64,000 bases of DNA from Sacculina carcini. Lineage: Eukaryota; Arthropoda; Thecostraca; Sacculinidae. Location of the stretch: NCBI GenBank assembly GCA_916048095.2, contig OU696573.1, positions 4,467,535 to 4,531,534 on the forward strand. The letters run 5' to 3'. The notes beneath the pieces were generated by a model. It made no database searches, was not told where the DNA came from, and saw only the letters and a list, made by a program, of their open reading frames with translations. Each line of letters opens with the position of its first letter. Position 1 is the stretch's first letter. Both the position numbers and the translations under genes were made by a program. This document shows positions 18,371 through 64,000 of the stretch, piece by piece.

Positions 18371-18550
18371 ATGACTGTGTATATGTGCGTGTATGTATGC
18401 TGGCGTGCTGGCTGCTGACATTGAGAGGCCTGGCGAGGAAGGCTATCAGACAGCGTGGCTATGGACATAGTTTAAGAGCGGTGTATGCTAGTTTGTTCTA
18501 TACATTACACTGTTTTATTTTCAAGTGCATACATATTTTTATAATATACG

Positions 18551-19497
18551 TCTACAGTACCATGATTGAACTGATGGACGATGTTAAAATGTGTCTACAG
18601 TATCATGATTGAACTGATGGACGATGTGAAAATGTGTCTACAGTATCATGATTGAACTGATGGACAATGTTAAAATGTGTCTACAGTATCATGATTGAAC
18701 TGATGGATAATGTTAAAATGTGTCTACAGTATCATGATTGAACTGATGGATGATGTTAAAATGTGTCTACAGTATCATGATTGAACTGATGGACAATGTT
18801 AAAATGTGTCTACAGTATCATGATTGAACTGATGGACAATGTTAAAATGTGTCTACAGTATCATGATTGAAATGATGGACAATGTTAAAATGTATCTACA
18901 GTATCATGATTGAACTGATGGACAATGTTAAAATGTGTCTACAGTATCATGATTGAACTGATGGACAATGTTAAAATGTGTCTACAGTATCATGATTGAA
19001 CTGATGGACAATGTTAAAATGTGTCTACAGTATCATGATTGAAATGATGGACAATGTTAAAATGTATCTACAGTATCATGATTGAACTGATGGACAATGT
19101 TAAAATGTGTCTACAGTATCATGATTGAACTGATGGACAATGTTAAAATTTGTCTACAGTATCATGATTGAACTGATGGACAATGTTAAAATGTGTCTAC
19201 AGTATCATGATTGAACTGATGGACAATGTTAAAATGTGTCTACAGTATCATGATTGAACTGATGGACAATGTTAAAATGTGTCTACAGTATCATGATTGA
19301 ACTGATGGACAATGTTAAAATGTGTCTACAGTATCATGATTGAAATGATGGACAATGTTAAAATGTATCTACAGTATCATGATTGAACTGATGGACGATG
19401 TTAAAATGTGTCTACAGTATCATGATTGAAATGATGGACGATGTTAAAATGTGTCTACAGTATCATGATTGAAATGATGGACAATGTTAAAATGTGT
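18551..19497 (+). repeat. 43-bp minisatellite, about 22 units
   Basis: The unit begins TCTACAGTATCATGATTGAA and continues with CTGATGGACAATGTTAAAATGTG. Units differ by a few positions (GGACAATG/GGACGATG, GAACTG/GAAATG). The same unit occurs in reverse orientation at 41497-42560 and 49914-50043. The 180 bases between the LTR and the array hold nothing recognised. Confidence 0.97.
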
Positions 19498-20097
19498 GTT
19501 GCGATCGGCATCATTCTCGAACATATGATCATATATTGTGGATAACTAGATGGTGCCGTTTCAACGTATATTTCAAGAAATTTTTCGTAAGTAGACTGTC
19601 TATCATACTTCTGGAATTAATTGAAAAACACTACTTTGCACCAACACCTCGTCTTCTTTTTTAATTGAACAATTAAGTATATCTCCATTTTCATTGACAT
19701 GCCTGGATTTTACGTCTCGTGGCAAATTCAGGGAACCATAGAGAACGCTCCCAGTTTATACATGCTTGCCGCCGCGAGACAAGCACACGTTGCGGACACA
19801 CGCAAACAGGTAAGCAAATAATCACATAATCATACACCGTAGCGTTCTCACACACTTCACACATCGTACACACGTCAAGTTAGCCTTGACGTGCGTTTTA
19901 CTGGTAGATCCAGGTAGTCGATAGTCTGGCTGCAATAATAAACACGAGTCATCGAAGCCGTGTCAGGTCTGTGACTGTCTCCCGTGTAACCACTGCTTCA
20001 GTTTACGTGCTTATATAGAAGACATTGAAGAACGAAATTATCTGTGTTGTCTTTGGAGAAATATATAATATAATTGGGACCATTTACAATGGTTAGG
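19498..20097. other. Non-coding stretch, nothing recognised
   Basis: No coding frame or RNA gene was seen. Near its right end is GGTTAGGTTAGGTCAGG, which superficially resembles TTAGG-type telomere repeats but is far too short to call. Confidence 0.5.
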
Positions 20098-21300: not shown

Positions 21301-22334
21301 GTAATGTGAACGATGTATTTAGTGACAATCAAATCCATGATATGAAACTGGAAATAAACGCCGCACAAGAGTTCAGACGACGCCAGCAAAAAACACGGAG
21401 AAGAATAAGGCAGACAATATCCTCTCACACTCGTACGTAAAACCACTAGACACACACATACGCGAAAGCCACTGAAACAACTATCACCGCACACAACCTA
21501 TTCACACTAAACCAACGCCACACTCTCACTGACTCGTTACATTCTCTCCAGGGCTGCCAGGTGTCTCAAGCCATATAAGGCCAAACCGGTGACGAAAAAA
21601 GGCCAAAAAGGCCAGCCTCGAAGCACAGCGAGGTAATTGTATTTGCTGAACGCCAAATATTTCCAAAGCGCCCAACAGAGGCGTCAATTACATTGTGAGA
21701 CATATGAAAGGTACTATTTCACAAAAATATTTGTTTCCACTAGGTACGTTTCAGGCGGAGAAAATAATTATGAAAATATGTTTACAACAACATTTTTACT
21801 GCACTGATACATTTTTTCTCAATTTTCAAATATTTTTAGCGAATTATGGATATTTCCAGTGCGCTGAGGTCAAATATTAATCTAGTTTCTATTAATTCCT
21901 TCTACCGTTTATGCAATTCAACTTTTTGTAGCAGTGTGAAAATACACTCAAAACGCACATTTCGTTCTAATATTCATTTCAAATATCTCACAAAGTAGGG
22001 ACAATCTAACAAGCTAATAATATATCTTATTTGAGCAACATTTAATTACCTGATGAAAATACATTTTGCAAAAACGTGTCATGCGTGTCGTGCACATGCT
22101 CAGTTGGACGCGCATGACATTCGAGGAACCTACAGTAACGTTCCCAATAACAAGTTGCGTGGCGTAAACACTGGCGTGGTTGATGAGCGAATGAATGTAT
22201 TACACAGTGAAGGGTGAACAAACGTACAACGCTACTTGTGTCCAGTGACACTCACACACACACACACATGCACACACGCATACAAACAATATCACACACA
22301 CACTCATACACACACACTCATACACACACACACT
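21300..22334. other. LTR remnant and unassigned sequence
   Basis: The first part is probably 5' LTR of the decayed family A copy (no partner LTR, so its end cannot be fixed). The rest holds no gene. A CA/ACTCAT-rich stretch at about 22250-22334 precedes the CsRn1-type element and contains the left edge of the segmental duplication at about 22293. Confidence 0.5.
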
Positions 22335-23091
22335 TGTAGCGACCCAGTCCATAACAGTTGCGTCGTACTAATACCGCTAGATGGCGCCATGTGTACATAT
22401 TCACTGTTTGTATGCGCGATTTTTGACCTTATAGACTGTGACTGTGCGATAGCGTAGCATAAGTACGTCTGATAGCACGATATACAGCAAATGTTTTTCA
22501 TGATTATATATTAATTATACAATTGATTGCCACACGTTGTACTATTTTACATTGCTATATATGTACGCTTCAAATCCTGGTCGCTGCGCTACGTGTAATA
22601 TTTATATGTGTGTAAACTTGTGCATTTACTATGTGAACATCATGCCCTGCATTAGACCGTTTCAAGTTAAGCACCATTATGGGGTAAATTTCGATGCCTT
22701 GCTTCGTCAAGTCAGTCGAACTTTGTGAAGTGAATACAGTGATACGTGTTACAGTGAAAGTGTTGTGCTATCCCTCTCCTTTCGTTGGGTAATAGGTGGT
22801 AGTTTACGCTGGTAGCTCCGGTATTACCAGTATTGCATTCCACGGACCCGTCTCTTCCTTCTTCCTTGCCTCTCTCCCCTTGGCTCAGGCCTCTCACCCA
22901 CTGGAGGTGAGAGTGCTCGCTCCGGGTGCAGTACGATCCCGGAGCACACCGGTCCTGATTGAGCCCAGGCCTAAACAGGCTAGCAGAGGCGTGGGTTGCC
23001 CTGCATCAAGAAGGGAAATTGTCTGGTCGCGTGTCGGTGAACACAGGCCACATTTGGCCCAATAGAATTGGACTCAAATCCACATTCTACA
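22335..23091 (+). repeat. 5' LTR, CsRn1-type element copy 1
   Basis: 757 bp, TGTAGCGACC to ATTCTACA. Matches 27417-28173 at a constant offset of 5,082. Confidence 0.95.
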
Positions 23092-23092
23092 C

Positions 23093-23110
23093 TGGTGACC
23101 CCGACGTGAT
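23093..23110 (+). promoter_or_regulatory. Primer-binding site for tRNA-Trp
   Basis: TGGTGACCCCGACGTGAT is an 18-base complement of the 3' end of animal tRNA-Trp including CCA. It begins two bases after the 5' LTR. A partial second copy (TGGTGACCCCGAC) lies at about 23129-23141. Confidence 0.85.
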
Positions 23111-23147
23111 CTACACTGGAGCGACACTGGTGACCCCGACAACCGGC

Positions 23148-24050
23148 ATGCTAGAACCCGGAGGCACGACACCACAGGCACAGTCGCCCGACGGTAATGT
23201 GGATCTCACAACCACAGCCAAGCCGTTGACGACATTCCTCCTACCACCGTTCTGCGCTGACGAGCCCGAATTGTGGCTCACACAAGTGGAGTTCGCGTTC
23301 GACGTATCCGGTATCGACGATGGCCGCAGCCGTCTCAAAATGCTCGCGGCGAACCTTCCGATGCCGGTCGCGGTCCAAGTAAAGGACATCATCAGCCGAC
23401 AGACTGCGACATTCACCGAACTCTGCGAAGCACTCCGTTCACGACTGGCTACCTCTCGCGCATCAAAACTCGAAGCACTGCTGCGCCATCAACAGTTAGG
23501 TGATCAGCGACCATCGCAACTGTTGCGCAACATGCGCAACGAAGTGACAGCGGCAGGAGATCCTGGAGACACCGGACTTCTGCGAACGCTATTTCTCCAG
23601 CGATTGCCACAAACAATCCGCACCGCACTGTCTCTCCTTCCAGAGAACAGTGACTTGGACTTGTTGGCTACCGCCGCTGATCGCTTTGCTCAAGCAACTG
23701 ACAATCAATCGGCTACAGTCTGGCCAGAAGTGGCGGCGATTCGGCAAGTAGAGCACGCTGCATCAGCTCCTACAGCACCAACCGTGTCCCACACGGAATT
23801 TTCTCAGCTGATGGGGAAAATGACGGAGCTCATCAGCGAACTGCAGATCTCAAGGAGTCACGCAGCCGAAAGTCGCTCTCGCCCGCCACAGCGGAACCGT
23901 TCGTTGTCTCGTCGCAACTCCAGACCGAGCCAAAACCAGGTGCGCAGTGACGAAAATCGTGTTTGTCGCTTCCACCGCAGATTTGGCTCATCAGCTTACA
24001 GATGCGAGCTTCCGTGTACTTGGACTGCTACAGCCAACTCGGAAAACTGA
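23148..24050 (+). CDS. CsRn1-type gag
   Basis: 300 residues from the first Met after the primer site; the open frame extends upstream into the LTR but that part is untranslated leader by position. Capsid-like blocks include [36 protein letters not shown] and [10 protein letters not shown]. The C-terminus is Arg/Ser-rich and ends with [18 protein letters not shown], a Cys-His-Cys-Cys arrangement in place of a CCHC knuckle, as reported for CsRn1 relatives. The gag stop TGA (24048-24050) follows a GGAAAAC heptamer, and pol lies in the -1 frame. This frame is intact. Confidence 0.85.
24041..24047 (+). promoter_or_regulatory. Candidate -1 frameshift heptamer GGAAAAC
   Basis: In the gag frame it reads G GAA AAC and is followed immediately by the gag stop. 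Slipping back one base continues into the protease frame. It is a near-canonical heptamer, so the assignment is tentative. Confidence 0.45.
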
Positions 24051-27000
24051 TGAGCCTGCGGCGCAGCGCACCAGCGTCGACGGGCGAAATTCACAAACCG
24101 GTGCCTCTCTTCTTTGTACAAGACAGCATAAATACACGACGCTTCTTAGTGGACACCGGTGCCCAGGTGAGTGTTCTGCCTGTGTCAAGCTTGCCAGAAC
24201 CTCCGCCGCAACAGTCTTCCAAGCTGTTAGCGGCAAACGGTTCGCTCGTAAATGTCTATGGCACTCATGAGCTTACATTGACACTCACTCATGGCCCTCC
24301 GTTGCGCTGGAAATTTGTAGTCGCTGACACGACACTTCACATAATCGGCGCTCATTTGCTTGCACATTACCGTCTCATTGTCGATGTGCATCGCATGATG
24401 TTAAGCGATATTTCGGGACGTGTCCGCGCCCGAGGTACTGTGAATACCCTGAAATCTCCTCGGCTACAGTGCCTTGTAGAAATTTCACCGGCGTTTCATT
24501 CGTTACTCGCCGAATTTCCAGGTGTGGTGCGTCCGCCCGATCAGCCATTTCCGCTGCGTCATTCGGTAACGCACCATATCCAAACACACGGTCCGCCGAA
24601 ATTCGATAGACCACGCCGCTTGCCTCCCGACCGACTGAATGTGGCAAAGCAATCATTTTCCGATATGCAAAGGCTCGGAATCATGAGGCCATCGAGCAGC
24701 AGCCGGGCTGCACCACTGCATATGGTGCGCAAGAAACAGCCTGGTGATTGGCGTCCGTGTGGGGACTACCGCACCCTGAACGCGTGTACCGTACCGGACA
24801 AATATCCGATCCCGCACATTCAAGAATTCGTGACTAATCTGGCGGGTTGTCGTGTATTCACCACCTTGGATCTTGTGAGGGCGTACAATCAGATCCCAGT
24901 AGAGCCGAACGACGTCCACAAAACTGCAATTACTACACCGTTCGGGCTCTTCGAGGCTACGCGAATGCCGTTTGGTCTCCGCAACGCGGCCCAAACAATG
25001 CAACGCTTCGTTGATCAAATACTGGCAGGGCTCAACAATGTGTACGCGTACATAGATGATATTCTCATCGCCAGTTCCACCATGGCAGAACATGAAGTTC
25101 ACGTACGCGCAGTCTTACGCCGCTTACAAAAATATGGAGTTATCATCAATACAAGTAAGTGCGTGTATGGGCAAGCCGAAGTATCTTTCCTGGGTCATCG
25201 TCTCACCACCAATGGTATCTCCCCGTTGCCAGACAAAATGGACGCGATCATGTCATTTCCCACGCCAGAAACACAGGCTCAGCTTCGTCGATTTCTCGGA
25301 ATGACAGCGTTCTACAACCGCTTCTTGCCCGCTGCAGCAGAGCAACTGCAGCCGCTGCACAAACTACTGGTGCCAGCCGGTAAGCGTTCTCGCCGACCCG
25401 TAAATTGGACTGGCGATGCACAAGACGCTTTCCAAAACATCAAAGAGAAACTGGTTGCTGCCGTCATGCTGACGCACCCAGTTCGCGACGCTCCAATCAG
25501 CCTACAGGTGGATGCGTCCGACAAAGCTATCGGAGCAGTCCTGCAGCAATATGCACACGACGACTGGAAGCCACTGGCATTCTTTTCAAAAGCGTTGCGT
25601 CCAACCGAGTGCCGCTACAGCACGTTTGGTCGTGAGCTCTTGGCAATCTACTTGGCCATCCGAAGATTCAGGCACGCAGTGGATGGCCGACCATTGATTA
25701 TTTTCACAGACCATCGCCCACTCGTCACCGCTGTGAACTCTCATTCGGACCGCTAGTCTCCACGAGAAATTCGTCATCTGGAGTTCATAACCCAGTTCAC
25801 GACGGATATCAGACACGTGGCGGGCTCCGACAACGTTGTAGCTGATGCTTTATCGCGCACAATCAGCGTTCTGTGTCATCCAAAACCACCACTTCACGAT
25901 TTTGATGCGTTAGCAGCCGCACAGCAAGCCGATGTCGCCTTGCAGCGGTTAGAAGACACAGAACATTCGCTACGGCTACGCAGAATCAAACTCGCAAGCG
26001 GTGCACTCTTGCTATGTGATGAATCGACAGGCCGCCCTCGTCCAATCATACCGACAAGCTTCCGCAGACATTACTTTTCTCTGTGGCACAATATGTCTCA
26101 TCCGGGTGTTCACGCCACACAAAAACTGATCACATCTCGCTGTGTTTGGCCAAATATGAAGCGTGAAATTCAACAGTGGACACGCTCATGCGTATCATGT
26201 CAACGAGCCAAGGTCCACAGACACACACGAGCTCCAATCGGCACCTTTGACGTGCCCAGCGACCGATTCCGACATGTGCACGTCGACTTGGCTGGTCCGC
26301 TGCCTGCATCCAAAGGAATGACGTACGTACTCACATGCATCTGTCGCTTCACAAGGTGGGCAGAAGTGATACCCATTGCTGACATGCGAGCCGAAACAGT
26401 ATGTCGTGCATTTTTTGCTTGGCTGGTTAGCGCTATTTGGTGTCCCTGAAATTGTGACAACAGACAGAGGTACGCAATTCACCGGCACTCGCTGGCAGCA
26501 ATTGTGTGAAGTCATGGGCTTTAAACACAAAACTACATGCAGCTACCATCCGGCAAGCAATGGCCTTGTTGAGCGTCTGCATCGCCAACTTAAGGCATCA
26601 CTGCGAGCGCACATGTCAGTCAATTGGACGGACACTCTGCCAATTGTTCTTCTTGGTTTAAGAACGGCCGTCAAAGCAGACCTGCAAGTGTCATCCGCCG
26701 AACTGGTATACGGCACGCCGCTACGCATTCCATGCGAAATGATTGTGCCTCGTACAGGACGCGCCCAACAGCCGCAAACATCGCTCGCGTATGCAGACAC
26801 ATTGAGGCGATCCATGGCCCATATCAGACCAACGCCACCGCGTCACACGTCTGCCAGATCCCACGTGCCATCCGCCCTTGTATCGTGCAGCCATGTATTT
26901 GTCCGCCATGAAGCGCGTCATACTCCCCTTGATTACCCCTACGACGGTCCTTTTCGTGTTGTCAGCTGGACGGATAAGACAATTACAATTCAGCGCCGTT

Positions 27001-27421
27001 CGAAAACAGACACAGTCTCCATCGATCGAGTCATCCCGGCCGTTGTTGAAAACGTCGAACCATGCATGTCACACACCAGTGATCCGAAATCAGCAACTAA
27101 ACTGTTCCTGTCACAGCCATGCGCGGGACCAGATCCTGTGCTGAGATGCGCGGGACACAACCGGCCGGTAGTGCAACGACAACACGGCCGCAAATCATCA
27201 GATCATCACAAGTGTCACCACAATCTAAACGACCACAGGATCAACAAAAAACACAACCTTCACAACAACGAAACAGGCAAACACATAAACGACAGTTATC
27301 ACCACCAACTGAATCCACACAACCACCATCCATTTTGCAGACTCGTGTAGGACGAATTGTGCGAACTCCCAAACGGTATCGAGTCTCCTTCCTAGTCAAC
27401 TCTGACGGGGGGGTAGTGTAG
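24048..27421 (+). pseudogene. CsRn1-type pol with one stop and two frameshifts
   Basis: Protease [16 protein letters not shown] with [40 protein letters not shown] and the catalytic AYIDDILIA, RNase H with [25 protein letters not shown] and FTDHRPL. An in-frame TAG at 25754-25756 breaks the RNase H end, but the same frame continues with GSDNVVADALSR and the integrase zinc-binding region (HNMSHPG, CVSCQRAK) and VHVDLAGPL. Near 26420 the frame shifts by one; VTTDRGTQF and SNGLVERLHRQLK, completing the D,D,E triad, are in the new frame (to 27350). A second shift between about 27119 and 27300 brings the C-terminal VGRIVRTPKRY block, ending at 27421 on the 3' LTR edge. Without these lesions the order is the usual PR-RT-RH-IN. 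Confidence 0.85.
27402..27416 (+). promoter_or_regulatory. Polypurine tract, CsRn1-type element copy 1
   Basis: GACGGGGGGGTAG-type purine run abutting the 3' LTR start. Confidence 0.8.
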
Positions 27422-28173
27422 CGACCCAGTCCATAACAGTTGCATCGTACTAATACCGCTAGATGGCGCCATTTGTACATATTCACTGTTTGTATGCGCG
27501 ATTTTTGACCTTATAGACTGTGACTGTGCGATAGCGTAGCATAAGTACGTCTGATAGCACGATATACAGCAAATGTTTTTCATGATTATATATTAATTAT
27601 ACAATTGATTGCCACAAGTTGTACTATTTTACATTGCTATATATGTACGCTTCAAATCCTGGTCGCTGCGCTACGTGTAATATTTATATGTGTGTAAACT
27701 TGTGCATTTACTATGTGAACATCATGCCCTGCATTAGACCGTTTCAAGTTAAGCACCATTATGGGGTAAATTTAGATGCCTTGCTTCGTCAAGTCAGTCG
27801 AACTTTGTGAAGTGAATACAGTGATACGTGTTACAGTGAAAGTGTTGTGCTATCCCTCTCCTTTCGTTGGGTAATAGGTGGTAGTTTACGCTGGTAGCTC
27901 CGGTATTACCAGTATTGCATTCCACGGACCCGTCTCTTCCTTCTTCCTTGCCTCTCTCCCCTTGGCTCAGGCCTCTCACCCACTGGAGGTGAGAGTGCTC
28001 GCTCCGGGTGCAGTACGATCCCGGAGCACACCGGTCCTGATTGAGCCCAGGCCTAAACAGGCTAGCAGAGTCGTGGGTTGCCCTGCTTCAAGAAGGGAAA
28101 TTGCCTGGTCGCGTGTCGGTGAACACAGGCCACATTTGGCCCAATAGAATTGGACCCAAATCCAAATTCTACA
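27417..28173 (+). repeat. 3' LTR, CsRn1-type element copy 1
   Basis: 757 bp, same length and ends as the 5' LTR, followed by CACT, which repeats the four bases before the 5' LTR. Confidence 0.95.
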
Positions 28174-33411: not shown

Positions 33412-33480
33412 CTACATCATCAACGGGTTCACATAATTGAAGCCGTCAAACTGTCTCTGGTCGATTTGTTCGACAGACAT
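33412..33480 (-). pseudogene. Ancestral aPKC C-tail end, out of frame
   Basis: In the frame next to the long one, the minus strand reads [19 protein letters not shown] and then TAG at 33412-33414. This is a clear variant of the tail end found after each kinase domain ([16 protein letters not shown]). The long frame enters it shifted, through a TCA-repeat junction, and stops at 33429-33431. It is probably the original gene terminus left behind by module amplification. Confidence 0.8.
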
Positions 33481-36400
33481 GATGATGATGATAATGGAGA
33501 TGGGAGTCGTGCAGATGGTGGGGATGATGGCGGTGATAGCGATATTAGCAACGGGTTGACATAATCAAAACCGTCAAATTGGCTCTGGTCAATTTTTTCA
33601 ATGGTGCTTGTGTTGTCGGGTGTTAGCCGCGCCGGCTCGTCTGTGAAGAGGGACGGAAAGTTGGCCAGATCATGTTCGCTCTTGACGCGTGGCTTGTACG
33701 GCGGCTTCAATTGCTTCCGCACCAAAAGCTGCCAGTCAACACTGTTGAAGAACTCATGCCCAACGATGTCTTTGAAGCCGGTGTTCGGATGGCAGCCCAG
33801 TCGCTCTATCGGGTTCTTTTTTAGAAGACCTCTCAGGATTTTGCGCGCATTCGCCGACAAAGAGGGCGGAATGCGGATGGTCTTTTCGAGAATTATCCGA
33901 TACAGATGGTTCTTGGTTTTCTCATTGGGTGCTTTAGAATGATGACCAATTTCGAACGGAATGCGATTAGTGAGCATCTCAAACATGAGCACGCCCAGCG
34001 ACCACCAATCAACACTGAAGTTATATTTCTTGCCAAGCAATATCTCCGGCGCGATGTAGTGGGGTGTGCCGCAGAAGGTGGACGTTGTTTTGCCTGGTCG
34101 CATTCCTTCCTTGCAAAGGCCGTAGTCGATAAGCTTAATATGTCCCTCGTGGTCGATCAGCACATTTTCCAGCTTCAGATCACGATGGATAATGCCGTTA
34201 TCATGCAGAAAATTAAGCGCCAGGCACAGCTCCGCCGAGTAGAACTTGACGTGCTCCTCCGGTAGTTTGCCGTGACGCTCCATATGATTCATGAGGTCGC
34301 CGCCGCGCACAAACTGAATCACGAAGAACAGCCGACTGGGACTTTGGAAGCACGAGTGCAGTCCCACCAGGAACGGGTGGTTGAACGCCATCTTGAACAC
34401 GTGTGTCTCGGTCTGCACGCAGCCGATATCCTTGGCATTCTTGATCAGCTTCTTCTTGATCGCCTTCATGGCGTAGAGGCGCCGAGTGCGTCGTAACTCC
34501 ACCATCATCACTTTGCCGAATCCTCCGCGTCCAATCACGCGGATCAGATCAAAATCGGCCAGCGAATACTGATTTGGGAGAATGGCCGCGGCCCCAGCAG
34601 GAACCAGGTCCACACTGGCCGATTTAGTAATGGTAGGGACGACGACGAGAGCCGGCTCAACCGCGTCAACTCCTACTTTGGCCGGTATCTTCATCGACTT
34701 AGTGGTGGTGTTGGTGTGGAGTTTACCGTTGATTGGGTCACAGCGCAGATGCTTCTGCGCCAGTGGCTTGCCAGTGTGCTTTCCCTTCAATAACTTGTTA
34801 CGCGAAACAAGACTCAATGTAGGGTGACGAGCAAACGGCGTCGGTTGTAGCGGAGATGAATGTCGTGATGGTGATGATAAGGGAGATGGGAGTCGTGCAT
34901 ATGGTGGGGATGATGGCGGTGATAGCGATATTAGCAACGGGTTGACATAATCAAAACCGTCAAATTGGCTCTGGTCAATTTTTTCAATGGTGCTTGTGTT
35001 GTCGGGTGTTAGCCGCGCCGGCTCGTCTGTGAAGAGGGACGGAAAGTAGGCCAGATCATGTTCGCTCTTGACGCGTGGCTTGTACGGCGGCTTCACTTGC
35101 TTCCGCACCAAAAGCTGCCAGTCAACACTGTTGAAGAACTCATGCCCAACGATGTCTTTGAAGCCGGTGTTCGGATGGCAGCCCAGTCGCTCTATCGGGT
35201 TCCTTTTTAGAAGACCTCTCAGGATTTTGCGCGCATTCGCCGACAAAGAGGGCGGAATGCGGATGGTCTTCTCGAGAATTATCCGATACAGATGGTTCTT
35301 GGTTTTCTCATTGGGTGCTTTAGAATGATGACCAATTTCGAACGGAATGCGATTAGTGAGCATCTCAAACATGAGCACGCCCAGCGACCACCAATCAACA
35401 CTGAAGTTATATTTCTTGCCAAGCAATATCTCCGGCGCGATGTAGTGGGGTGTGCCGCAGAAGGTGGACGTTGTTTTGCCTGGTCGCATTCCTTCCTTGC
35501 AAAGGCCGTAATCGATAAGCTTAATATGTCCCTCGTGGTCGATCAGCACATTTTCCAGCTTCAGATCACGATGGATAATGCCGTTATCATGCAGAAAATT
35601 AAGCGCCAGGCACAGCTCCGCCGAGTAGAACTTGACGTGCTCCTCCGGTAGTTTGCCGTGACGCTCCATATGATTCATGAGGTCGCCGCCGCGCACAAAC
35701 TGAATCACGAAGAACAGCCGACTGGGACTTTGGAAGCACGAGTGCAGTCCCACCAGGAACGGGTGGTTGAACGCCATCTTGAACACGTGTGTCTCGGTCT
35801 GCACGCAGCCGATATCCTTGGCATTCTTGATCAGCTTCTTCTTGATCGCCTTCATGGCGTAGAGGCGCCGAGTGCGTCGTAACTCCACCATCATCACTTT
35901 GCCGAATCCTCCGCGTCCAATCACGCGGATCAGATCAAAATCGGCCAGCGAATACTGATTCGGGAGAATGGCTGCGGCCCCAGCAGGAACCAGGTCCACA
36001 CTGGCCGTTTTAGTAATGGTAGGGACGACGACGAGAGCCGGCTCAACCGCGTCAACTCCAACTTTGGCCGGTATCTTCATCGACTTAGTGGTGGTGTTGG
36101 TGTGGAGTTTACCGTTGGCTGGGTCACAGCGCAGATGCTTCTGCGCCACTGGCTTGCCAGTGTGCTTTCCCTTCAATAACTTGTTACGCGAAACAAGACT
36201 CAATGTAGGGTGACGAGGAAATGGCGACGGTTGTAGCGGAGATGAATGTCGTGATGGTGATGATAATGGAGATGTGAGTCGTGCATATGGTGGGGATGAT
36301 GGCGGTGATAGCGATATTAGCAACGGGTTGACATAATCAAAACCGTCAAATTGGCTCTGGTCAATTTTTGCAATGGTGCTTGTGTTGTCGGGTGTTAGCC

Positions 36401-38510
36401 GCGCCGGCTCGTCTGTGAAGAGGGACGGAAAGTTGGCCAGATCATGTTCGCTCTTGACGCGTGGCTTGTACGGCGGCTTCAATTGCTTCCGCACCAAAAG
36501 CTGCCAGTCAACACTGTTGAAGAACTCATGCCCAACGATGTCTTGGAAGCCGGTGTTCGGATGACAGCCCAGTCGCTCTACCGGGTTCTTTCTTAGAAGA
36601 CCTCTCAGGATTTTGCGCGCATTCGCCGACAAAGAGGGCGGAATGCGGATGTTCTTCTCGAGAATTATCCGATACAGATGGTTCTTGGTTTTCTCATTGG
36701 GTGCTTTAGAATGATGGCCAATTTCGAACGGAATTCGATCAGTCAGCATCTCGAACATAAGCACGCCCAGCGACCACCAATCAACACTGAAGTTATATTT
36801 CTTGCCAAGCAATATCTCCGGCGCGATGTAGTGGGGTGTGCCGCAGAAGGTGGACGTTGTTTTGCCTGGTCGCATTCCTTCCTTGCAAAGACCGTAGTCG
36901 ATAAGCTTAATATGTCCCTCGTGGTCGATCAGCACATTTTCCAGCTTCAGATCACGATGGATAATGCCGTTATCATGCAGAAAATTAAGCGCCAGGCACA
37001 GCTCCGCCGAGTAGAACTTGACGTGCTCTTCCGGTAGTTTGCCGTGACGCTCCATATGATTCATAAGGTCGCCGCCGCGCACAAACTGAATCACGAAGAA
37101 CAGCCGACTGGGACTTTGGAAGCACGAGTGCAGTCCCACCAGGAACGGGTGGTTGAACGCCATCTTGAACACGTGTGTCTCGGTCTGCACGCAGCCGATA
37201 TCCTTGGCATTCTTGATCAGCTTCTTCTTGATCGCCTTCATGGCGTAGAGGCGCCGAGTGCGTCGTAACTCCACCATCATCACTTTGCCGAATCCTCCGC
37301 GTCCAATCACGCGGATCAGATCAAAATCGGCCAGCGAATACTGATTTGGGAGAATGGCCGCGGCCCCAGCAGGAACCAGGTCCACACTGGCCGTTTTAGT
37401 TATGGTAGGGACGACGACGAGAGCCGGCTCAACCGCGTCAACTCCAACTTTGGCCGGTATCTTCATCGACTTAGTGGTGGTGTTGGTGTGGAGTTTACCG
37501 TTGGCTGGGTCACATCGCAGATGCTTCTGCGCCACTGGCTTGCCAGTGTGCTTTCCCTTCAATAACTTGTTACGCGAAACAAGACTCAATGTAGGGTGAC
37601 GAGGAAATGGCGACGGTTGTAGCGGAGATGAGTGTCGTGATGGTGATGATAATGGAGATGGGAGTCGTGCAGATGATGGGGATGATGGCGGTGATAGCGA
37701 TATTAGCAACGGGTTGACATAATCAAAACCGTCAAATTGGCTCTGGTCGATTTTTCCAATGGTGCTTGTGTTGTCGGGTGTTAGCCGCGCCGGCTTGTCT
37801 GTGAAGAGGGACGTAAAGTTGGCCAGATCACGTGTGGCCGCGTCTTTCGCCTCGGTCGCGGTCCCAACAGGAACCAGGTCCACACTGACCGTCCCTTTGC
37901 TGGTGGGGGCGACCACAAGAGCCGGCTCCACTGCGTCAACACCAACATTGCCCGACTTAGTGGTGGTGTCGGTGTGGGGTTTACCGTTGGTTGAGTCAGA
38001 GCGCAGATGCATCTGTGCGGCTAGCTTTCCGCTAGCTGTGCCGCTATTCCGCTTTCTCTTCAATAACTTCTTAGGCGTACCGTGACGAAGAAATCGCCAC
38101 GGCTTAAGTAGCGGAGATGATGGCGATGATGATACTGGTGATGATGGTGGCGATAGTGTGACCGCTTCCATCGACTCGGTCGCTGTCCCAGCAGGAACCA
38201 GGTCCACACTGACCGTCCCATTGCTGGTGGGGAAGACCACGAGAACCGGCTCCACCGCGTCAACACCAACATTGCTTGACATCTTCATCGACTTAGTGTT
38301 GGTGTCTTTGTGAAGTTCACCATTGGTTGAGTCAGAGCTCAGATGTGTCTGCGCCACTATCTTGCCTGTGCGTTTTCTCTTCAATAACTTATTATGCGAA
38401 ACAAGACTAAACGTAGCGTGACGAATATATCGCGTCGGTGGAAGTAGCGGAGATGATGGTGGTGATGTTGACGATTGTGGTGATAATGGTGATGATGATG
38501 ATTGTTGTGG

Positions 38511-38542
<32 letters not shown>

Positions 38543-40277
38543 GTCGTGATAATGGTGATGATGATGATTGTGCTGGTGATGATGATGATGATGATGATGA
38601 TTGTGGTAATAATGGTGATGATACTGATTGTGGTGATGATAATGATGATGATGGTGATTGTGGTGACGATGGTGATGATAGTCGTGGTAATTGTTGTGGA
38701 GATGGTGACGGTAGGGTCCGAACGTCCTCGGTTTGCACGCGGTTGGACTGCAGCATACCTAGAGAGACTCTGCTCAAATCATGTAAATCTCTCCCGCATC
38801 CAAAATCTGGAGGCCCTGCATCATTTTTTGTGTCGGTCGACCTGCGCGTGCCGGAGCGTGACCGGTGAACTTCATCTGCCTCGCCGGTGACGTTGAGGAG
38901 AATCCGGGACCCTCGACATGTCAGATATGTAGTGGAACAGTACCGCATCTGTTCCGATGTCCAAACATGCCCACGGTTCTTCAGCTGGAGGACCTGTGGC
39001 GATGCCCGGTCGAGATGACCGGTCCGCTGGTCGCCTGGGAGCATCGGCTTGGCTGGTCCGAGGTAGGGCTGCGGGTCTCCTCGGTACACAACAGCTGATG
39101 GGAGGGTCGACGACGATGGTGATGATGGTGGTAGTGGTGAAGGTGATGGTAGTGGTTGTGGTTGTGGTAGTAATGATAGTGATTGTGATGATGGCGGTGG
39201 TATTATCAAATCACTGGACATTGACAGTGAGACGTCACTTTTTACACAAACCACTTTATCGGCTGCATTTCTGCTCTTTCTACCGATATCGTTGTTCGTA
39301 GATTTCCTAACGTCTTCGTTGGCTTGATGTTTGTTCATTACACTGTCTTGACATATGATTTCTATCAGATCTGCCTTTAACATTTCACTGGAGATCATTA
39401 CTGTTCTGCTTATTGGCTGTATGTCACACTGACGGCTAGATATTCCGATATCCTCACAAACATTCCAGTTGAGTATCCGAGGAATATCAGAATAATCGAT
39501 GTATGGTGATCGAGGTCCAGGCTCATGGAAATTCGTGACTAGTTTGCTTAACTGACCAATCTCACGCGTGCTGATATCCATGTAGCGAACTTCTTGAATT
39601 GCTGCGCTGACATACGGGTTGATTTTGGCCAGCTTTTTCAAAATGCCCATAATGGTCGTTGCAGTGGCCTCTTGCTGGATAAAGTCCACGCAACGGACCA
39701 GTACCAGGGTATTATCCCGATCCAGCACAATTTTGCTGAGTGTTTGCCTCTCGCTGACTATTGCTTTGAGGCAGAGTACACATTCGTTTAACACCTGTTG
39801 TGCATTGGCCATCCGAGTGGTCTTTTTGGTGTTTGATGTTTTGAAGATCTGCATAAAGCAGTTTTGAACGGCTGTTTTCTCTTTTTGGTCAACTCGTTCT
39901 TTGGCCGACACTACAATATTCATGTAGTCGAGCAGAACAATGACCCCTTGTTGCTGCTGTACAAACTCTAATTGCCACCATCTGGTGTACATACGTAGCG
40001 AAATCTCCAAATCTTTAAGCAGAGTGGTGTGCTTGCCACACATGTCGAGAACTTTGCTGGGCTTCTGGGTGATCATTTTCGCCGAGTAGATCTTGATATA
40101 GCGCACATAGTACGCGGGACACTGGCGGATGGTCTTCCTCCAGTTGGAAAGCATGCTCCACTTTGAAGAGATGTTGTAGTGGACACATAGCTTTGCTGCC
40201 TCTTCGGTAACACCGATCCAGGCTAGGTGTTTGATGAATGCTTCATCAATATCGCTTTTGCTGTGCATTGCTTGCAT
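33429..40277 (-). CDS. Chimeric formin-like N-terminus with three aPKC-like kinase domains
   Basis: 2,282 residues in one uninterrupted frame from ATG at 40275-40277. Residues about 10-250 resemble the GTPase-binding/FH3 armadillo region of FMNL formins ([57 protein letters not shown]). Residues about 395-510 are antisense to a LINE fragment. Ser/Pro-rich stretches and linker modules with basic LLKRKR motifs follow. A kinase-less C-tail is at about 816-857. Kinase domains start near residues 984, 1446 and 1908, each ending in its tail within 340 residues. Each has GRGGFGKV, the lysine of YAMKAIKKK, alpha-C Glu in [17 protein letters not shown], aPKC-style [17 protein letters not shown], turn motif LTPDN and hydrophobic motif [12 protein letters not shown] with an acidic phosphosite substitute, all diagnostic of aPKC. 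PB1, pseudosubstrate, C1, FH1 and FH2 are absent. The last 16 residues are out of frame. Whether it is expressed is unknown. Confidence 0.75.
33545..37336 (-). repeat. Three tandem 1,386-bp kinase modules
   Basis: Corresponding positions are 1,386 bp apart (462 codons): kinase starts at about 37328, 35942 and 34556; kinase-tail blocks at 36317-37328, 34931-35942 and 33545-34556. Each module is linker, kinase domain and AGC tail. Modules differ by only a handful of residues: TDRIPFE in the first and TNRIPFE in the others, [18 protein letters not shown] and [16 protein letters not shown] and RKQVKPP. This means recent amplification or ongoing homogenisation. Confidence 0.95.
38440..39215. repeat. 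GAT-type trinucleotide runs encoding Ser-rich segments
   Basis: Imperfect GATGATGGT-type repeats (about 38440-38710 and 39100-39200) on either side of the LINE fragment. On the coding minus strand they give long Ser and Pro runs. Similar shorter runs mark every linker and the terminal junction near 33480. Confidence 0.85.
38745..39100 (+). mobile_element. LINE 5' fragment encoding a 2A peptide, antisense within the kinase gene
   Basis: On the plus strand 38865-38912 encodes [15 protein letters not shown], an exact match to the 2A ribosome-skipping consensus D-V/I-E-x-N-P-G-P, followed by [11 protein letters not shown] and further Cys residues. 2A peptides followed by a Cys-rich domain are known at the start of ORFs in some CR1/L2-type LINEs, for example in sea urchin. 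A stop lies directly upstream in frame (38859-38861), and the surrounding plus-strand sequence is short, so it is only a fragment. The minus strand of the same bases is read through as residues about 395-510 of the kinase gene. Confidence 0.75.

Positions 40278-41366: not shown

Positions 41367-41371
<5 letters not shown>
40278..41371. other. Region upstream of the kinase gene
   Basis: AT-rich, without coding frames. It holds a diverged direct duplication: 40401-40560 resembles 40577-40735 (shared blocks ATTCCCxATGAAAACTCGTG, ATTCGG, ATGTTTGTTTCA, ACTCACAAAA), period about 177 bp. No promoter element can be named with confidence. Confidence 0.55.

Positions 41372-41420
<49 letters not shown>
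41372..41420. repeat. TG microsatellite, about 49 bp
   Basis: About 24 TG units just before the inverted-orientation minisatellite. Confidence 0.95.
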
Positions 41421-41421
<1 letters not shown>

Positions 41422-41496
41422 TAGGTGTACGTCTCTCCCTCTCTCTCTGAAAATTTTCTTGTCTACACTTTAAACTAAATTTTAAATTTTAAAAAT

Positions 41497-42560
41497 TAAC
41501 ATTGTCCATCAGTTCAATCATGATACTGTAGACACTTTTTAACATCATCCATCAGTTCAATCATGATACTGTAGACACATTTTAACATTGTCCATCAGTT
41601 CAATCATGATACTGTAGACACATTTTAACATTGTCCATCAGTTCAATCATGATACTGTAGACACATTTTAACATCGTCCATCAGTTCAATCATGATACTG
41701 TAGACACATTTTAACATCGCTCATCAGTTCAATCATGATACTGTAGACACATCTTAACATTGTCCATCAGTTCAATCATGATACTGTAGACACATTTTAA
41801 CATTGTCCATCAGTTCAATCATGATACTGTAGACACATTTTAACATTGTCCATCAGTTCAATCATGGTACTGTAGACACATTTTAACATTGTCCATCAGT
41901 TCAATCATGATACTGTAGACACATTTTAACATTGTCCATCAGTTCAATCATGATACTGTAGACACTTTTTAACATCATCCATCAGTTCAATCATGATACT
42001 GTAGACACATTTTAACATTGTCCATCAGTTCAATCATGATACTGTAGACACATTTTAACATCGTCCATCAGTTCAATCATGATACTGTAGACACATTTTA
42101 ACATTATCCATCAGTTCAATCACGATACTGTAGACACATTTTAACATCATTCATCAGTTCAATCATGGTACTGTAGACACATTTTAACATCGTCCATCAG
42201 TTCAATAATGATACTGTAGACACATTTTAACATCATCATCAGTTCAATCATGATACTGTAGACACATTTTAACATTGTCCATCAGTTCAATCATGATACT
42301 GTAGACACATTTTAACATTGTCCATCAGTTCAATCATGATACTGTAGACACATTTTAATATTGTCCATCAGTTCAATCATGATACTGTAGACACATTTTA
42401 ACATCATCCATCAGTTCAATCATGATACTGTAGACACATTTTAATATTGTCCATCAGTTGAATCCTGATACTGTAGACACATTTTAACATCATCCATCAG
42501 TTCAATCATGATACTGTAGACACATTTTAACATCGTCCATCAGTTCAATCATGATACTGT
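41497..42560 (-). repeat. 43-bp minisatellite, reverse orientation, about 25 units
   Basis: Unit CATGATACTGTAGACACATT plus TTAACATTGTCCATCAGTTCAAT, the reverse complement of the array at 18551-19497. It is interrupted at 42560 by a Mag-type element and resumes at 49914. Confidence 0.97.
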
Positions 42561-42737
42561 TGTGGCATGTGTATAAGTGCTGTACCGTATGTCGTCATGT
42601 CAGAGAGTGTAGAGTGTGACAGGCTTATTCACAGAACTCTGTTGCAACCCGATCCTGTGCACCTGCAGCCATGTATGTCAGTATTGTATGTATCAATAGC
42701 AGTCATGTGTGTGCAATAAACCAGACAACACGTTACA
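42561..42737 (+). repeat. 5' LTR of Mag-type element
   Basis: 177 bp, TGTGGCATG to CGTTACA, with AATAAA near its 3' end as a likely polyadenylation signal. Confidence 0.95.
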
Positions 42738-51566: not shown

Positions 51567-54559
51567 GCGTCGGCGTCTTCTCGTTTGCCAATGACGCGTT
51601 ACCCACGACACTCATGCGAGTAAATGATTGTGAGAAATTTGTACTCGTCGACTCAGGCTGTTCCAAGTGTATAATTCATCAGTCGTGCTGTGGTTCATGG
51701 GAACCATATGTTTGCACTATTGTAACTGTAGACGGCACCAAGCATAGGAGTCTTGGCAGGACAATGGTATGCTTACAAAGTGCTGCTCATTCACCAAAAT
51801 TTGTTGAAGCCATGGTTGTCAGCTTCAAACCGTTGAATTTTGAATTTGTGTTGGGTATGAATGGCGTATCGTCCTACGGTGGTGTGTGCATCAGTGGCGA
51901 GGGTAATGTGAGACTTGGTGTGCATTGTGACGCTACAGCAGGAACTCAGTACACGGCTGGAGCGGCTGATGCTTCTGGTTGAATGCCGGGTAAACTGACC
52001 GACCTTGTCATTGAACGACAAGACTTTACAGCAAAATTCAGTGCTGACAAGAAACAGTGGACAGCTGCGTGGAAGTGGGCGGACGGACGGCCACCAGGTG
52101 CTCTAAAAAACAAAGTTCGTGAATACGCCATGAAGCCCAGTGTTCGAATGGAATACCGTAGAGAAGTATTGGACTGGATCAAGCGTGGCTGGCTGCAACG
52201 ATATGATGAACGAGAGCACGGACCTGCGAAAGCGTTAATTCCCCTAATGGCTGTCGTTCAAAATAATAAGCAAAAAACCAGGCCAGTCCTTGACTTCAGA
52301 GAGCTCAATGACTTCATAAATCCATTCACTGCCAACAGTGACGTTTGTGCCGACAAAATTCGCCTGTGGAGACGTGTTGGAGGCAGTGCGGTGTTGATCG
52401 ATTTGAGGAAGGCTTACTTGCAAATCGCCGTGAGCTCCGACTTGTGGCCTTTTCAAACCGTCAATTTCGAGGGCCGCCGTTTTTGTCTCACTAGACTCGG
52501 ATTCGGTCTCAATGTCGCCCCATTGGTGATGCAAGCCGTACTGGAGACTGTGTTGAAACAGGACCCGACCGTGTTTCAGGGTACGTCTTCCTACATCGAC
52601 GATGTGCTTGTGAACGCGAATGTCGTTGGTGTGGACAAGGTGGTTGCACACCTGGAAAAATACGGCCTCGTGTGCAAAGCTCCCGAGCGACTGCGAGACG
52701 GCGCTCGTGTCCTTGGTGTCAGAGTGGACAGCCATGGTCGTCATCTGCGTTGGCGCCGTGACAACTGTGTTGGTGACATACCGGATGTTCTCACACGGCG
52801 GAACGTGTTTTCAGTTTGTGGCAAACTGACAGGGCACATGCCAGTGTGTGGCTGGTTGCGTGTGGCGGCAGCATACATCAAGCGTCGAGCAAATGCTGCA
52901 ACTGCAAGCTGGGATGACAAGCTGCGTGATGGTGGAGAAGTCCGCAAAATGCTGGAGGAAATATTGGCCCGTGTGAAAGATGCTGATCCTGCAACTGGAC
53001 GCTGGGATGTGGTTGATGGAGACGCCACTGTTTGGACCGATGCTAGTTCATTGGCCATGGGTGCGGTATTGGAGATCGGCGGGTCAGTGATTGAAGACGG
53101 ATGCTGGTTGCGCACTGAGGATGCGGCTCATATTAATATGGCGGAACTCGACGCTGCTGTCAAAGGTGTGAACCTGGCGCTTATTTGGAAGCTGAAAAAA
53201 TTCCGTCTAGTTACTGATTCCCGCACAGTCTTCCACTGGATAAGCAACGCATTGAGTGGGCAATCGAGACTTCAAACAAAAGCCGCCAGTGAAATGCTTA
53301 TTCGCAGGAGGTTATCTGTTCTCACGTCTCTGGTGGCAGAGTACCAGTTGGACGTTAACGTCGCATTCGTCAGCTCAAGTTGCAATCTGGCGGACCAGCT
53401 GACTCGTGTGCCCACCGCCTGGCTGAGAAAGCAACCTAATGCAGCCGTGTCAGTGGCAGCAGCAGCGGCAGCACCGTGTACTTCACCGCATGATCCTCTC
53501 GCTGTCGTGCGAGCCGTGCATGAGGCCTCTGGTCACCCTGGTGTGAGGCGAACACTGTATTTCTCGAAGAAGAAAGACCCGTGTGTGAGCAGAAGGATGG
53601 CCCAAACGGTGGTGAGAAATTGTGATGCATGCCAGTCAGTTGATCCTGCTCCTGTGCGGTGGGCAGCAGGCAAGTTGCACGTAAAGCGCAACTGGCATCG
53701 TCTGGCCATCGACGTGACGCACGCAGGGCTTCACCATTACCTCACTGTGATCGACTGTGGCCCGTCGCGATTCTCACTGTGGCGTCACCTGAGACAGCAA
53801 GACAGTGTGAATGTCATCTTGCACTTGGAGAACATTTTTTATGAGCGCGGTCCACCAGCGGAAGTTCTGGCCGATAACGCAACTGTGTTTCGCAGCGCTG
53901 CTTTCAAAAGCATGCTCGAAAAATGGGGTGTCAATTTGATTTTTCGGTGCGCATATGAGCCCACTGGAAATGCCATCGCTGAGCGCAGCCATCGCACCAT
54001 CAAAACAATCGCTGCTAGGTCGAACTGTTCTGTATCGGAAGCTGTACATTGGTACAACATGACTCCAAAGGACAGCCGCACAGACAGTTCCGCGCCTGCC
54101 ATGCAGATATATAAATATCGCGTGCGGTCGCGGCCAATCCCGACGCCGCCACATTCTGGCAACGCTCAAGTTAACAACGCTTCTGTGCGCTGCAAGTTCA
54201 AACTTGGAGATGTTGTGTGGGTTCGGCAGCGAGGTGCAAGTTGTCACACCAGGTCACACATCGGCACTGTGACTGGTGTGACCTCTCAGCTCAGCGTCGA
54301 AGTCGACGGAGTGCCTCGTCACGTGAGAAGTCTGAGGCCGTGCAATCGACGCGTGGCTGTCAGTGTGCCGCCTGGTGTGCAGCAGCAGCAGCAGCAGGAA
54401 GAAGAGCGTCGTCCGGCTCTCGTGACAGTTCCGCCTGCAGCAGTTCAGCCTGAAAGAGTTGTTGAACCGGTGCAGATGAGTGAACAGCCGAATGACTTGC
54501 CTAGTCGCTCTGCTGTGCGTTTATTACGGGCCAATCCTGCGCCGCGTCAATTATTTTAA
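51533..54559 (+). pseudogene. Family A pol with one in-frame TGA after the protease
   Basis: The protease part (51533-51982) has VLVDSGCSKC and FVLGMNGV and ends with TGA at 51980-51982. The same frame resumes at once with ATG and runs 858 residues: TRPVLDFRELN, LIDLRKAYLQI, RLGFGLNVAPLVMQ, catalytic SYIDDVLVN, RNase H VWTDASSLAMG and LVTDSR, integrase GHPGVRRTL and CDACQ, LAIDVTHAG, LADNATVF and GNAIAERSHRTIK, and a basic, Gln-rich C-terminus. Everything else looks intact, so the TGA is either a fresh null mutation or a programmed stop separating protease from RT. The intact copy at 14166-17237 has sense codons across this junction, which argues for mutation. Confidence 0.8.
51539..51545 (+). 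promoter_or_regulatory. Candidate -1 frameshift heptamer GGGAAAC
   Basis: Reads G GGA AAC in the gag frame, two codons after the knuckle's last Cys; the protease frame is -1. Conserved with the element at 17225-17231. Confidence 0.7.
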
Positions 54560-55034: not shown

Positions 55035-55889
55035 ATTTCACACACTCATACACACACACTCATACACACACACACTTGTAGCGACCCAGTCCATAACAGT
55101 TGCGTCGTACTAATACCGCTAGATGGCGCCATGTGTACATATTCACTGTTTGTATGCGCGATTTTTGACCTTATAGACTGTGACTGTGCGATAGCGTAGC
55201 ATAAGTACGTCTGATAGCACGATATACAGCAAATGTTTTTCATGATTATATATTAATTATACAATTGATTGCCACACGTTGTACTATTTTACATTGCTAT
55301 ATATGTACGCTTCAAATCCTGGTCGCTGCGCTACGTGTAATATTTATATGTGTGTAAACTTGTGCATTTACTATGTGAACATCATGCCCTGCATAAGACC
55401 GTTTCAAGTTAAGCACCATTATGGGGTAAATTTCGATGCCTTGCTTCGTCAAGTCAGTCGAACTTTGTGAAGTGAATACAGTGATACGTGTTACAGTGAA
55501 AGTGTTGTGCTATCCCTCTCCTTTCGTTGGGTAATAGGTGGTAGTTTACGCTGGTAGCTCCGGTATTACCAGTATTGCATTCCACGGACCCGTCTCTTCC
55601 TTCTTCCTTGCCTCTCTCCCCTTGGCTCAGGCCTCTCACCCACTGGAGGTGAGAGTGCTCGCTCCGGGTGCAGTACGATCCCGGAGCACACCGGTCCTGA
55701 TTGAGCCCAGGCCTAAACAGGCTAGCAGAGGCGTGGGTTGCCCTGCATCAAGAAGGGAAATTGCCTGGTCGCGTGTCGGTGAACACAGGCCACATTTGGC
55801 CCAATAGAATTGGACTCAAATCCACATTCTACACTGGTGACCCCGACGTGATCTACACTGGAGCGACACTGGTGACCCCGACAACCGGC

Positions 55890-62366: not shown

Positions 62367-62387
62367 TGAACCACCACCTTGCCATTG
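62367..62387. other. 21-bp filler at a deletion junction
   Basis: Sequence belonging to neither side, between LINE position 29624-equivalent and kinase position 34345-equivalent. It matches net offsets exactly (4,720 bp lost, 21 gained, 32,742 minus 28,043). Confidence 0.85.
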
Positions 62388-64000
62388 TGGAAGCACGAGT
62401 GCAGTCCCACCAGGAACGGGTGGTTGAACGCCATCTTGAACACGTGTGTCTCGGTCTGCACGCAGCCGATATCCTTGGCATTCTTGATCAGCTTCTTCTT
62501 GATCGCCTTCATGGCGTAGAGGCGCCGAGTGCGTCGTAACTCCACCATCATCACTTTGCCGAATCCTCCGCGTCCAATCACGCGGATCAGATCAAAATCG
62601 GCCAGCGAATACTGATTTGGGAGAATGGCCGCGGCCCCAGCAGGAACCAGGTCCACACTGGCCGATTTAGTAATGGTAGGGACGACGACGAGAGCCGGCT
62701 CAACCGCGTCAACTCCTACTTTGGCCGGTATCTTCATCGACTTAGTGGTGGTGTTGGTGTGGAGTTTACCGTTGATTGGGTCACAGCGCAGATGCTTCTG
62801 CGCCAGTGGCTTGCCAGTGTGCTTTCCCTTCAATAACTTGTTACGCGAAACAAGACTCAATGTAGGGTGACGAGCAAACGGCGTCGGTTGTAGCGGAGAT
62901 GAATGTCGTGATGGTGATGATAAGGGAGATGGGAGTCGTGCATATGGTGGGGATGATGGCGGTGATAGCGATATTAGCAACGGGTTGACATAATCAAAAC
63001 CGTCAAATTGGCTCTGGTCAATTTTTTCAATGGTGCTTGTGTTGTCGGGTGTTAGCCGCGCCGGCTCGTCTGTGAAGAGGGACGGAAAGTAGGCCAGATC
63101 ATGTTCGCTCTTGACGCGTGGCTTGTACGGCGGCTTCACTTGCTTCCGCACCAAAAGCTGCCAGTCAACACTGTTGAAGAACTCATGCCCAACGATGTCT
63201 TTGAAGCCGGTGTTCGGATGGCAGCCCAGTCGCTCTATCGGGTTCCTTTTTAGAAGACCTCTCAGGATTTTGCGCGCATTCGCCGACAAAGAGGGCGGAA
63301 TGCGGATGGTCTTCTCGAGAATTATCCGATACAGATGGTTCTTGGTTTTCTCATTGGGTGCTTTAGAATGATGACCAATTTCGAACGGAATGCGATTAGT
63401 GAGCATCTCAAACATGAGCACGCCCAGCGACCACCAATCAACACTGAAGTTATATTTCTTGCCAAGCAATATCTCCGGCGCGATGTAGTGGGGTGTGCCG
63501 CAGAAGGTGGACGTTGTTTTGCCTGGTCGCATTCCTTCCTTGCAAAGGCCGTAATCGATAAGCTTAATATGTCCCTCGTGGTCGATCAGCACATTTTCCA
63601 GCTTCAGATCACGATGGATAATGCCGTTATCATGCAGAAAATTAAGCGCCAGGCACAGCTCCGCCGAGTAGAACTTGACGTGCTCTTCCGGTAGTTTGCC
63701 GTGACGCTCCATATGATTCATAAGGTCGCCGCCGCGCACAAACTGAATCACGAAGAACAGCCGACTGGGACTTTGGAAGCACGAGTGCAGTCCCACCAGG
63801 AACGGGTGGTTGAACGCCATCTTGAACACGTGTGTTACGGTCTGCACGCAGCCGATATCCTTGGCATTCTTGATCAGCTTCTTCTTGATCGCCTTCATGG
63901 CGTAGAGGCGCCGAGTGCGTCGTAACTCCACCATCATCACTTTGCCGAATCCTCCGCGTCCAATCACGCGGATCAGATCAAAATCGGCCAGCGAATACTG
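62388..64000 (-). pseudogene. Second kinase locus, 3'-truncated, runs off the window
   Basis: Offset 28,043 from 34345 onward. Reading leftward from the window edge: one whole aPKC-like kinase domain (63997 to about 63180), its tail and a linker identical to the one before module 3, then the N-lobe of the next kinase, cut after VGLHSCF at 62388. The frame continues into filler and LINE antisense to a stop ending at 62330. The whole domain is a mosaic: bases near 63686-63723 match module 1 (CTCTTCCGG, TTCATAAGG), while those from about 63550 leftward match module 2 (GGCCGTAATCGAT). Its alpha-C Glu is replaced by Val (VQTVTHVF; codon 63836-63838), which should disable the Lys-Glu pair. The frame is open at 64000. 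Confidence 0.85.

Follow-up and report, generated by a model that had tools for sequence, protein, structure and literature searches.

The stretch of DNA analysed here (the window; 64,000 nucleotides, C6:4467535-4531534 of an assembly of 264.4 Mb in 43 contigs) was found to contain a gene in which a formin-type N-terminus is joined, within one open reading frame, to three catalytic units of the atypical protein kinase C (aPKC) type. A sequence-only reading of the same DNA had described this arrangement as a single frame of 2,282 codons with an FMNL-like N-terminus and three complete aPKC units, and the observation is confirmed: the fusion at 33429-40277 is real. The features of the gene and its copy within the window are listed in Table 1.

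Table 1. Features of the formin-aPKC gene and its second copy, in window coordinates.
Feature	Position	Strand	Residues	Basis
Whole gene, single open frame of 2,282 codons, ATG to stop	33429..40277	(-)		Frame listing and translation
Formin-type GBD/FH3 N-terminus (Drf_GBD)	39630..40265	(-)	5-216	Pfam, PDB, profile
Ser/Pro-rich low-complexity linker	38394..39290	(-)	~330-628	Translation; simple TCA/ATG-type repeats
aPKC hinge remnant without kinase	38166..38393	(-)	629-704	57% over 76 residues against canonical exon
Second aPKC hinge remnant without kinase	37833..38096	(-)	~728-815	45% over 101 aligned positions
Orphan aPKC C-terminal tail, fourth Pkinase_C stretch	37713..37832	(-)	816-855	73% over 40 residues
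aPKC unit 1 (end of C1, hinge, kinase, tail)	36327..37571	(-)	903-1317	Pfam, exon alignment, motifs
aPKC unit 2	34941..36185	(-)	1365-1779	Pfam, exon alignment, motifs
aPKC unit 3	33555..34799	(-)	1827-2241	Pfam, exon alignment, motifs
Terminal aPKC-type tail, out of the gene's frame; in frame in C30 and C20 copies	33412..33480	(-)		DNA; weak frame-shifted matches
5' flank common to C19, C24 and C31 copies; final ~190 bp also match formin L011	40278..41390	(-)		
Second gene copy, partly in window, running past its edge	62384..64000	(-)		

A Pfam search with the whole protein matched Pkinase in three stretches and Pkinase_C in four, together with the formin GTPase-binding domain (GBD; Drf_GBD) at an expectation value (E) of 2.7e-6. 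The latter match scored 27.5 bits, below the cut-off of 30.1, and residues 1-300 alone gave 34.4 bits, above it; all 12 family N-termini examined matched Drf_GBD at E up to 0.01. When residues 1-330 were compared with the PDB, FMNL2 (1.2e-8) and FMNL1 (1.3e-7) were followed by two unrelated chains (0.77 and 1.1), and a profile of the 12 N-termini gave FMNL1 (1.1e-14) and FMNL2 (6.9e-14) ahead of a telomere-binding protein (0.047). The FMNL-like character, which the sequence-only reading had made dependent on a profile match to formins, is thus borne out by the profile as well as by the single sequence. The match covers the N-terminal GBD helices, with the FMNL2 chain aligned from residue 30 on, and ends at about the second armadillo repeat, so that FH3 is covered in its first part only.

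The kinase part matched PKC iota first in the PDB (E 7.5e-155), and each of the three units was found to contain all nine kinase motifs searched for, in agreement with their description as complete. The units repeat with a period of 1,386 bp, units 1 and 2 being identical at 1,358 of 1,386 bases. The presence of two hinge remnants and one kinase-less tail upstream of unit 1 indicates that the array has both gained and lost pieces, and the frame closes with 16 residues that come from an aPKC-type tail translated in the wrong reading frame. The absence of PB1 and C1 that had been noted holds: none of FH2, PB1 (PF00564), C1 (PF00130), HR1 or CRIB is among the 18 Pfam families matched by the protein at E up to 1, and a simple text search of the protein gave no aPKC-type pseudosubstrate string or pattern.

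The first 340 codons of the second copy lie outside the window and are identical to those of the window gene. This copy breaks off within its second kinase at 62384 and is followed by unrelated sequence. At the same kinase Cys-Phe, a damaged copy on another contig (L024, C20:3304500-3314400) has a stop, which is due to a base change and not to an insertion.

Size, integrity and spread of the family

A genome search for Drf_GBD (PF06371), in which all 147 candidates were scored, gave 135 matches, of which 123, on 25 contigs, exceed 480 bp and are near-complete; two of these contain a stop, and some genes give two matches. Pkinase_C (PF00433) has at least 150 (150 of 199 candidates scored). At least 56 of the 123 GBD matches share an open frame with a Pkinase_C tail, on 17 contigs and in frames of 765-2,897 codons, with one tail in 26, two in 16, three in 13 and four in one. 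Four more have a tail close by but in a different frame, and 63 have none among the matches listed. These 63 include kinase bearers: no tail was scored in the arrays on C4 and C11, but L046 and L047, a single sample from each array, both contain a kinase. A sample from C32 (L053) also reads as a kinase by eye, and a query with the best-matching public aPKC (P0122) gave at least 92 matches (74 of 550 candidates scored), reaching further contigs. Judged from sequence, this is a real, large, lineage-specific and intronless protein-coding family, with dozens of genes predicted to carry one to four kinases.

The linker of the window gene is long and rich in Ser and Pro, and could be read as an intron or spacer, in which case the N-terminus and the kinases would be separate proteins, from two genes or a spliced product. 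At 56 loci, however, N-terminus, linker and kinase follow one another within a single open frame, and a member with one kinase (L036) is a single frame of 1,331 aa, and this explanation is considered hardly credible.

Twenty-one distinct loci of the closest subfamily were read (L001-L005 and L021-L036; L006-L008 and L037 were the same places as others and were dropped). Fifteen have an unbroken frame between the N-terminal Met and the tail (1,331-2,892 codons) and six are broken or truncated (L021, L024, L027, L030, L031 and L032). Among the 45 kinase units of the 16 longest frames, 38 have all nine motif patterns and seven miss at least one. In L021 one unit is truncated and another has an altered helix-C pattern, L022 has HYG for DYG in one, and LTP is missing in four units on C20. 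DYH, a Gly-loop change or a changed activation loop was seen in remoter members (L040, L041 and L047).

The ratio of nonsynonymous to synonymous substitution rates (dN/dS, by NG86) of the N-terminus was 0.17-0.36 when the window or C30 copy was compared with kinase-bearing members (16 pairs, dS up to 0.86), 0.25-0.46, where defined, against members with FH2, and 0.22-0.53 for residues 1-340 of close copies (12 defined pairs). Compared with the canonical aPKC exon of the genome (see below), the kinases gave 0.17-0.21 (ten long units) and 0.23-0.38 (four partial samples), values which also include the constraint on the canonical copy. Between chimeric kinases the range was 0.26-0.60 in seven pairs and 0.25-1.10 in 16. 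On these ratios purifying selection is seen to have kept both halves, relaxed in places. Chance is excluded as an explanation, because many loci repeat the architecture within a single open frame and dN/dS is mostly well below 1 in both parts.

The copies on C6, C19, C24 and C31 have in common a 5' flank of 0.7-1.1 kb at 94-98% identity and a 3' flank of up to 1.5 kb (the limit of the stretch compared) at 95-98%, and have therefore moved as DNA segments. Arrays were found on C20 (a copy every ~20-27 kb), C24 and C31, and a pair on C6. An aPKC-type tail closes the C30 copy and six of those on C20, and the intact copies on C6, C19, C24 and C31 end in the out-of-frame tail, which suggests that the latter marks one derived subclade. 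The arrays, near-identical copies and shared flanks, together with the six broken loci, the dN/dS of up to 1.1 in young pairs and a window full of retroelements, would also suit a reading of much of the family as duplication debris, that is, young segmental copies in a repeat-rich genome of which few are functional, the window copy perhaps not among them. This is held to be improbable in view of the 15 open loci, the dN/dS of 0.17-0.36 between diverged members and the 38 units in which all motif patterns are kept.

Not all GBD-bearing genes appear to end in kinases. One sample (L050, C18:1619000-1620000) matched Peptidase_C48, an Ulp1-type protease (E 7.2e-16), and by coordinate arithmetic is in frame with a GBD at C18:1618066-1618698; eight GBD matches on C18, C22 and C9, one of which was read, have 631-codon frames like that of L050. 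Genes with two GBD matches per frame (996-1,329 codons) lie at C9:7484654-7486339, 7647465-7649135 and 7674576-7676261, and one two-GBD gene on C9 (L051) has a Pro/Ser-rich end without a Pfam family. On C8, eight GBD matches lie in short frames, seven of 320-385 codons and one of 274, too short for a GBD and a kinase.

Origin of the two halves

P0122 was used to locate the canonical aPKC of the genome, of which one exon was found at C8:6619770-6621170 (L038) as a single open stretch of 505 codons. P0122 is 88% identical to it in the genome search and 87% over 466 residues in alignment; the nearest named aPKC among the 15 best-matching entries is that of the goose barnacle Pollicipes pollicipes (80.8%). 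The exon is terminal and runs uninterrupted from inside C1 to the stop, and a separate frame just upstream encodes the pseudosubstrate and the start of C1. Each of the three window units is 70% identical to residues 38-457 of the exon, starting past most of C1 and containing the hinge, kinase and tail.

A kinase tree was built from 18 sequences, namely 12 chimeric kinases from eight loci, the canonical copy and five public aPKCs (the short samples L046 and L048 were left out, and no approximately unbiased test was made). One branch (100/100) separates the 12 chimeric kinases from the canonical copy and the public aPKCs, and another (100/97) sets the chimeras and the canonical copy apart from P0122, Pollicipes and three insects. 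Within the chimeric kinases branching is weak (69/72). With the insects as root, all 12 chimeric sequences thus form one clade beside the canonical copy, and this position, together with the 70% identity to the species' own exon, identifies the window kinase units as descendants of aPKC. The chimeric hinge is also, by eye, closer to that of its own canonical exon than to that of P0122. Because of the tree and this likeness of the hinge, the kinase part was probably taken once, after the split from the lineage of P0122.

It had been suggested in the sequence-only reading, from the lack of introns, that the kinase half arose through a retrocopy. This part of the earlier account is not upheld, since the units start inside a terminal exon that is already uninterrupted to the stop and no retrocopy is needed; a retroposed step could still have occurred, the argument from missing introns having been removed. 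An intron-loss step, if either half needs one, would belong to the formin half, because at a multi-exon formin locus (C9:4597229-4597937) the GBD region is split across two exons. A multi-exon FMNL orthologue was not found in the genome; a fragment on C9 (L052) reads, by eye, as Diaphanous-like.

Three loci were found to have FH2 in one long frame: L011 (C16, 687 codons), L012 (C25, 867 codons) and L010 (C9, 3,028 codons). They are intronless relatives of the window gene, and an FMNL/MWHF-type formin of this kind is the candidate donor of its N-terminal half. L011 and L012 have matches to FH2 and also to Drf_GBD, which falls below cut-off in the whole proteins; their identity to the window N-terminus is 57 and 24%, respectively. 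The 5' flank of the window gene also matches L011 at 73.8% over 187 bp. The FH2 sequences of all three show the lasso signature given for FMNL and MWH-related formins (MWHF) in PMC5047451, with Pro four residues before the first Trp and Phe as the second aromatic. At C21:5171527-5205956 six FH2 C-terminal pieces of equal score lie in a row, mostly ~5.5 kb apart.

Surroundings of the gene

The window has two near-identical retroelements (22297-27716 and 55039-60458), each with direct repeats 5,082 bp apart; a frame at 56705-58498 encodes protease, reverse transcriptase and RNase H. DUF7047 was matched in two reverse transcriptase-integrase frames, at 14166-17237 (-) and 51983-54559 (+). Elsewhere on C6, a contig of 12 Mb, two sites in opposite orientation (C6:5667672 and C6:5886642) match a Sacculina carcini 12S primer (PMC4222215) with one mismatch, and are perhaps nuclear mitochondrial copies. 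For the COI primer no site was found at up to two mismatches, a result that carries no weight in either direction if the assembly lacks the mitochondrial genome. The DNA is likely to come from a rhizocephalan. Arrays of a 43-bp tandem repeat occur at 18413-19615 and 41367-42697 in opposite orientation, 96% complementary over 742 bp, and the second sits just upstream of the 5' flank of the window gene.

Proposed function and relation to known systems

GBD/FH3 regions of formins bind Rho-family GTPases. The contacts named for FMNL2 in PMC4432619 include K73, E111, H222, R261, E311 and D360, and their positions were counted along the PDB alignment (chain number minus 2, an inferred offset). The position of E111 is E in 12 of the 12 family members, that of K73 is R in 10 and that of H222 is H in seven; R261, E311 and D360 fall in regions which the alignments did not recover. 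On these residues recruitment of window-type proteins by a GTPase is plausible and specificity for Cdc42 is not supported.

A second possibility is that the fusion is real and selected but that its GBD/FH3 no longer binds GTPases, serving instead as a dimerisation or localisation piece, with a kinase that is constitutive or otherwise regulated. It would account for the N found at the H222 position in the window copy and its subclade, and for the three contacts that were not recovered. A precedent is offered by MWH proteins, for which such a role is proposed and which keep DID-DD without a G-domain or FH2 (PMC5047451). Against it, the FMNL match takes in the N-terminal GBD helices, the position of E111 is invariant and the N-terminal dN/dS is low, and this possibility is regarded as rather unlikely.

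The acidic hydrophobic motif of aPKC spares one phosphorylation, and losing PB1, the pseudosubstrate and C1 removes docking and autoinhibition. The explanation considered best, and held with moderate confidence, is that of a real intronless formin-aPKC family in which the 3' half of a formin (FH1-FH2) would have been replaced by the species' own aPKC terminal exon to give a GTPase-directed kinase. The aPKC unit itself has been multiplied in tandem, giving between one and four kinases. Binding of an active Rho-family GTPase by the GBD/FH3 would position, and perhaps gate, the kinase units, which are rid of PB1, the pseudosubstrate and most of C1 and have a built-in acidic hydrophobic motif. The product would be a multivalent kinase recruited to the membrane or cortex.

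Several observations count against this explanation. Besides the N at the H222 position, these are the six broken or truncated loci, the seven incomplete kinase units and the pairs with dN/dS of 0.5-1.1. The N-terminal tree does not settle where L011 stands relative to the members with kinases, and for this reason the direction of the formin exchange is only inferred, as are the donor formin and the precise sequence of steps. AlphaFold2, run on residues 1-310 as a single sequence, gave a model with a mean pLDDT (predicted local distance difference test) of 33.9, which was not used.

The window gene shares its GBD/FH3 N-terminus with FMNL-type and MWHF formins and differs from them in having no FH2 among its matched families. 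Its product starts with MQ, whereas myristoylation of FMNL2 needs an N-terminal Gly (G2A, PMC4432619). With PKC iota/zeta it shares the kinase, activation loop, turn motif and acidic hydrophobic motif, differing in the lack of a PB1 or C1 match and of a pseudosubstrate string, and in its three tandem units behind a formin front end. MWH proteins likewise have formin N-terminal homology without FH2, but are described as lacking the G-domain in PMC5047451, whereas the GBD helices of the window protein align to FMNL; a word search of that paper gave neither kinase nor barnacle. By analogy, the fusion would work like ROCK, PKN, MRCK and citron in combining a GTPase-binding module with an AGC kinase. 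The modules of those kinases are of HR1, CRIB or coiled-coil types, and the window protein differs in having no HR1, CRIB or Rho-binding coiled coil among its 18 Pfam families.

None of the titles and abstracts listed in literature searches describes a formin-aPKC fusion. Among the 7,999 public proteins sharing most words with residues 1-1340 of the window gene's product, at least 253 matched at E<=0.001, the best local match among the 120 listed taking in at most 26% of the query; for residues 1-330, no match at E<=1 was obtained among 1,693 candidates. The species seems to be missing from the protein database, because the best aPKC is only 87% identical to the canonical exon, and these negatives therefore cannot exclude the fusion in relatives and have no bearing on expression. 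For Sacculina carcini, the two most strikingly expanded families are reported to have protein kinase domains (PMC9582164); the words formin and GTPase are absent from its main text, as are kinase and formin from PMC9664023.

The fusion may represent a re-invented class of GTPase-controlled kinases. A wider interpretation is put forward tentatively, the balance leaning slightly to doubt: one crustacean lineage, probably of parasitic barnacles, would have made the GTPase-sensing N-terminus of a formin into a shuffled module placed on FH2, on one to four aPKC kinases and on an Ulp1/C48 protease. The resulting set of about a hundred intronless genes would mean that Rho-GTPase effector kinases were invented anew, and radiated, independently, perhaps for rootlet growth or host interaction. 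It would amount to a natural domain-swap experiment, in which a polarity kinase without its own controls stands behind a formin GTPase-binding front end at dozens of loci. If true, it shows how new Rho-effector kinases arise and supplies a ready panel of paralogues for the study of GTPase specificity and multivalent kinase signalling, and it may fill in, at the molecular level, the kinase-family expansion noted in a parasitic barnacle.

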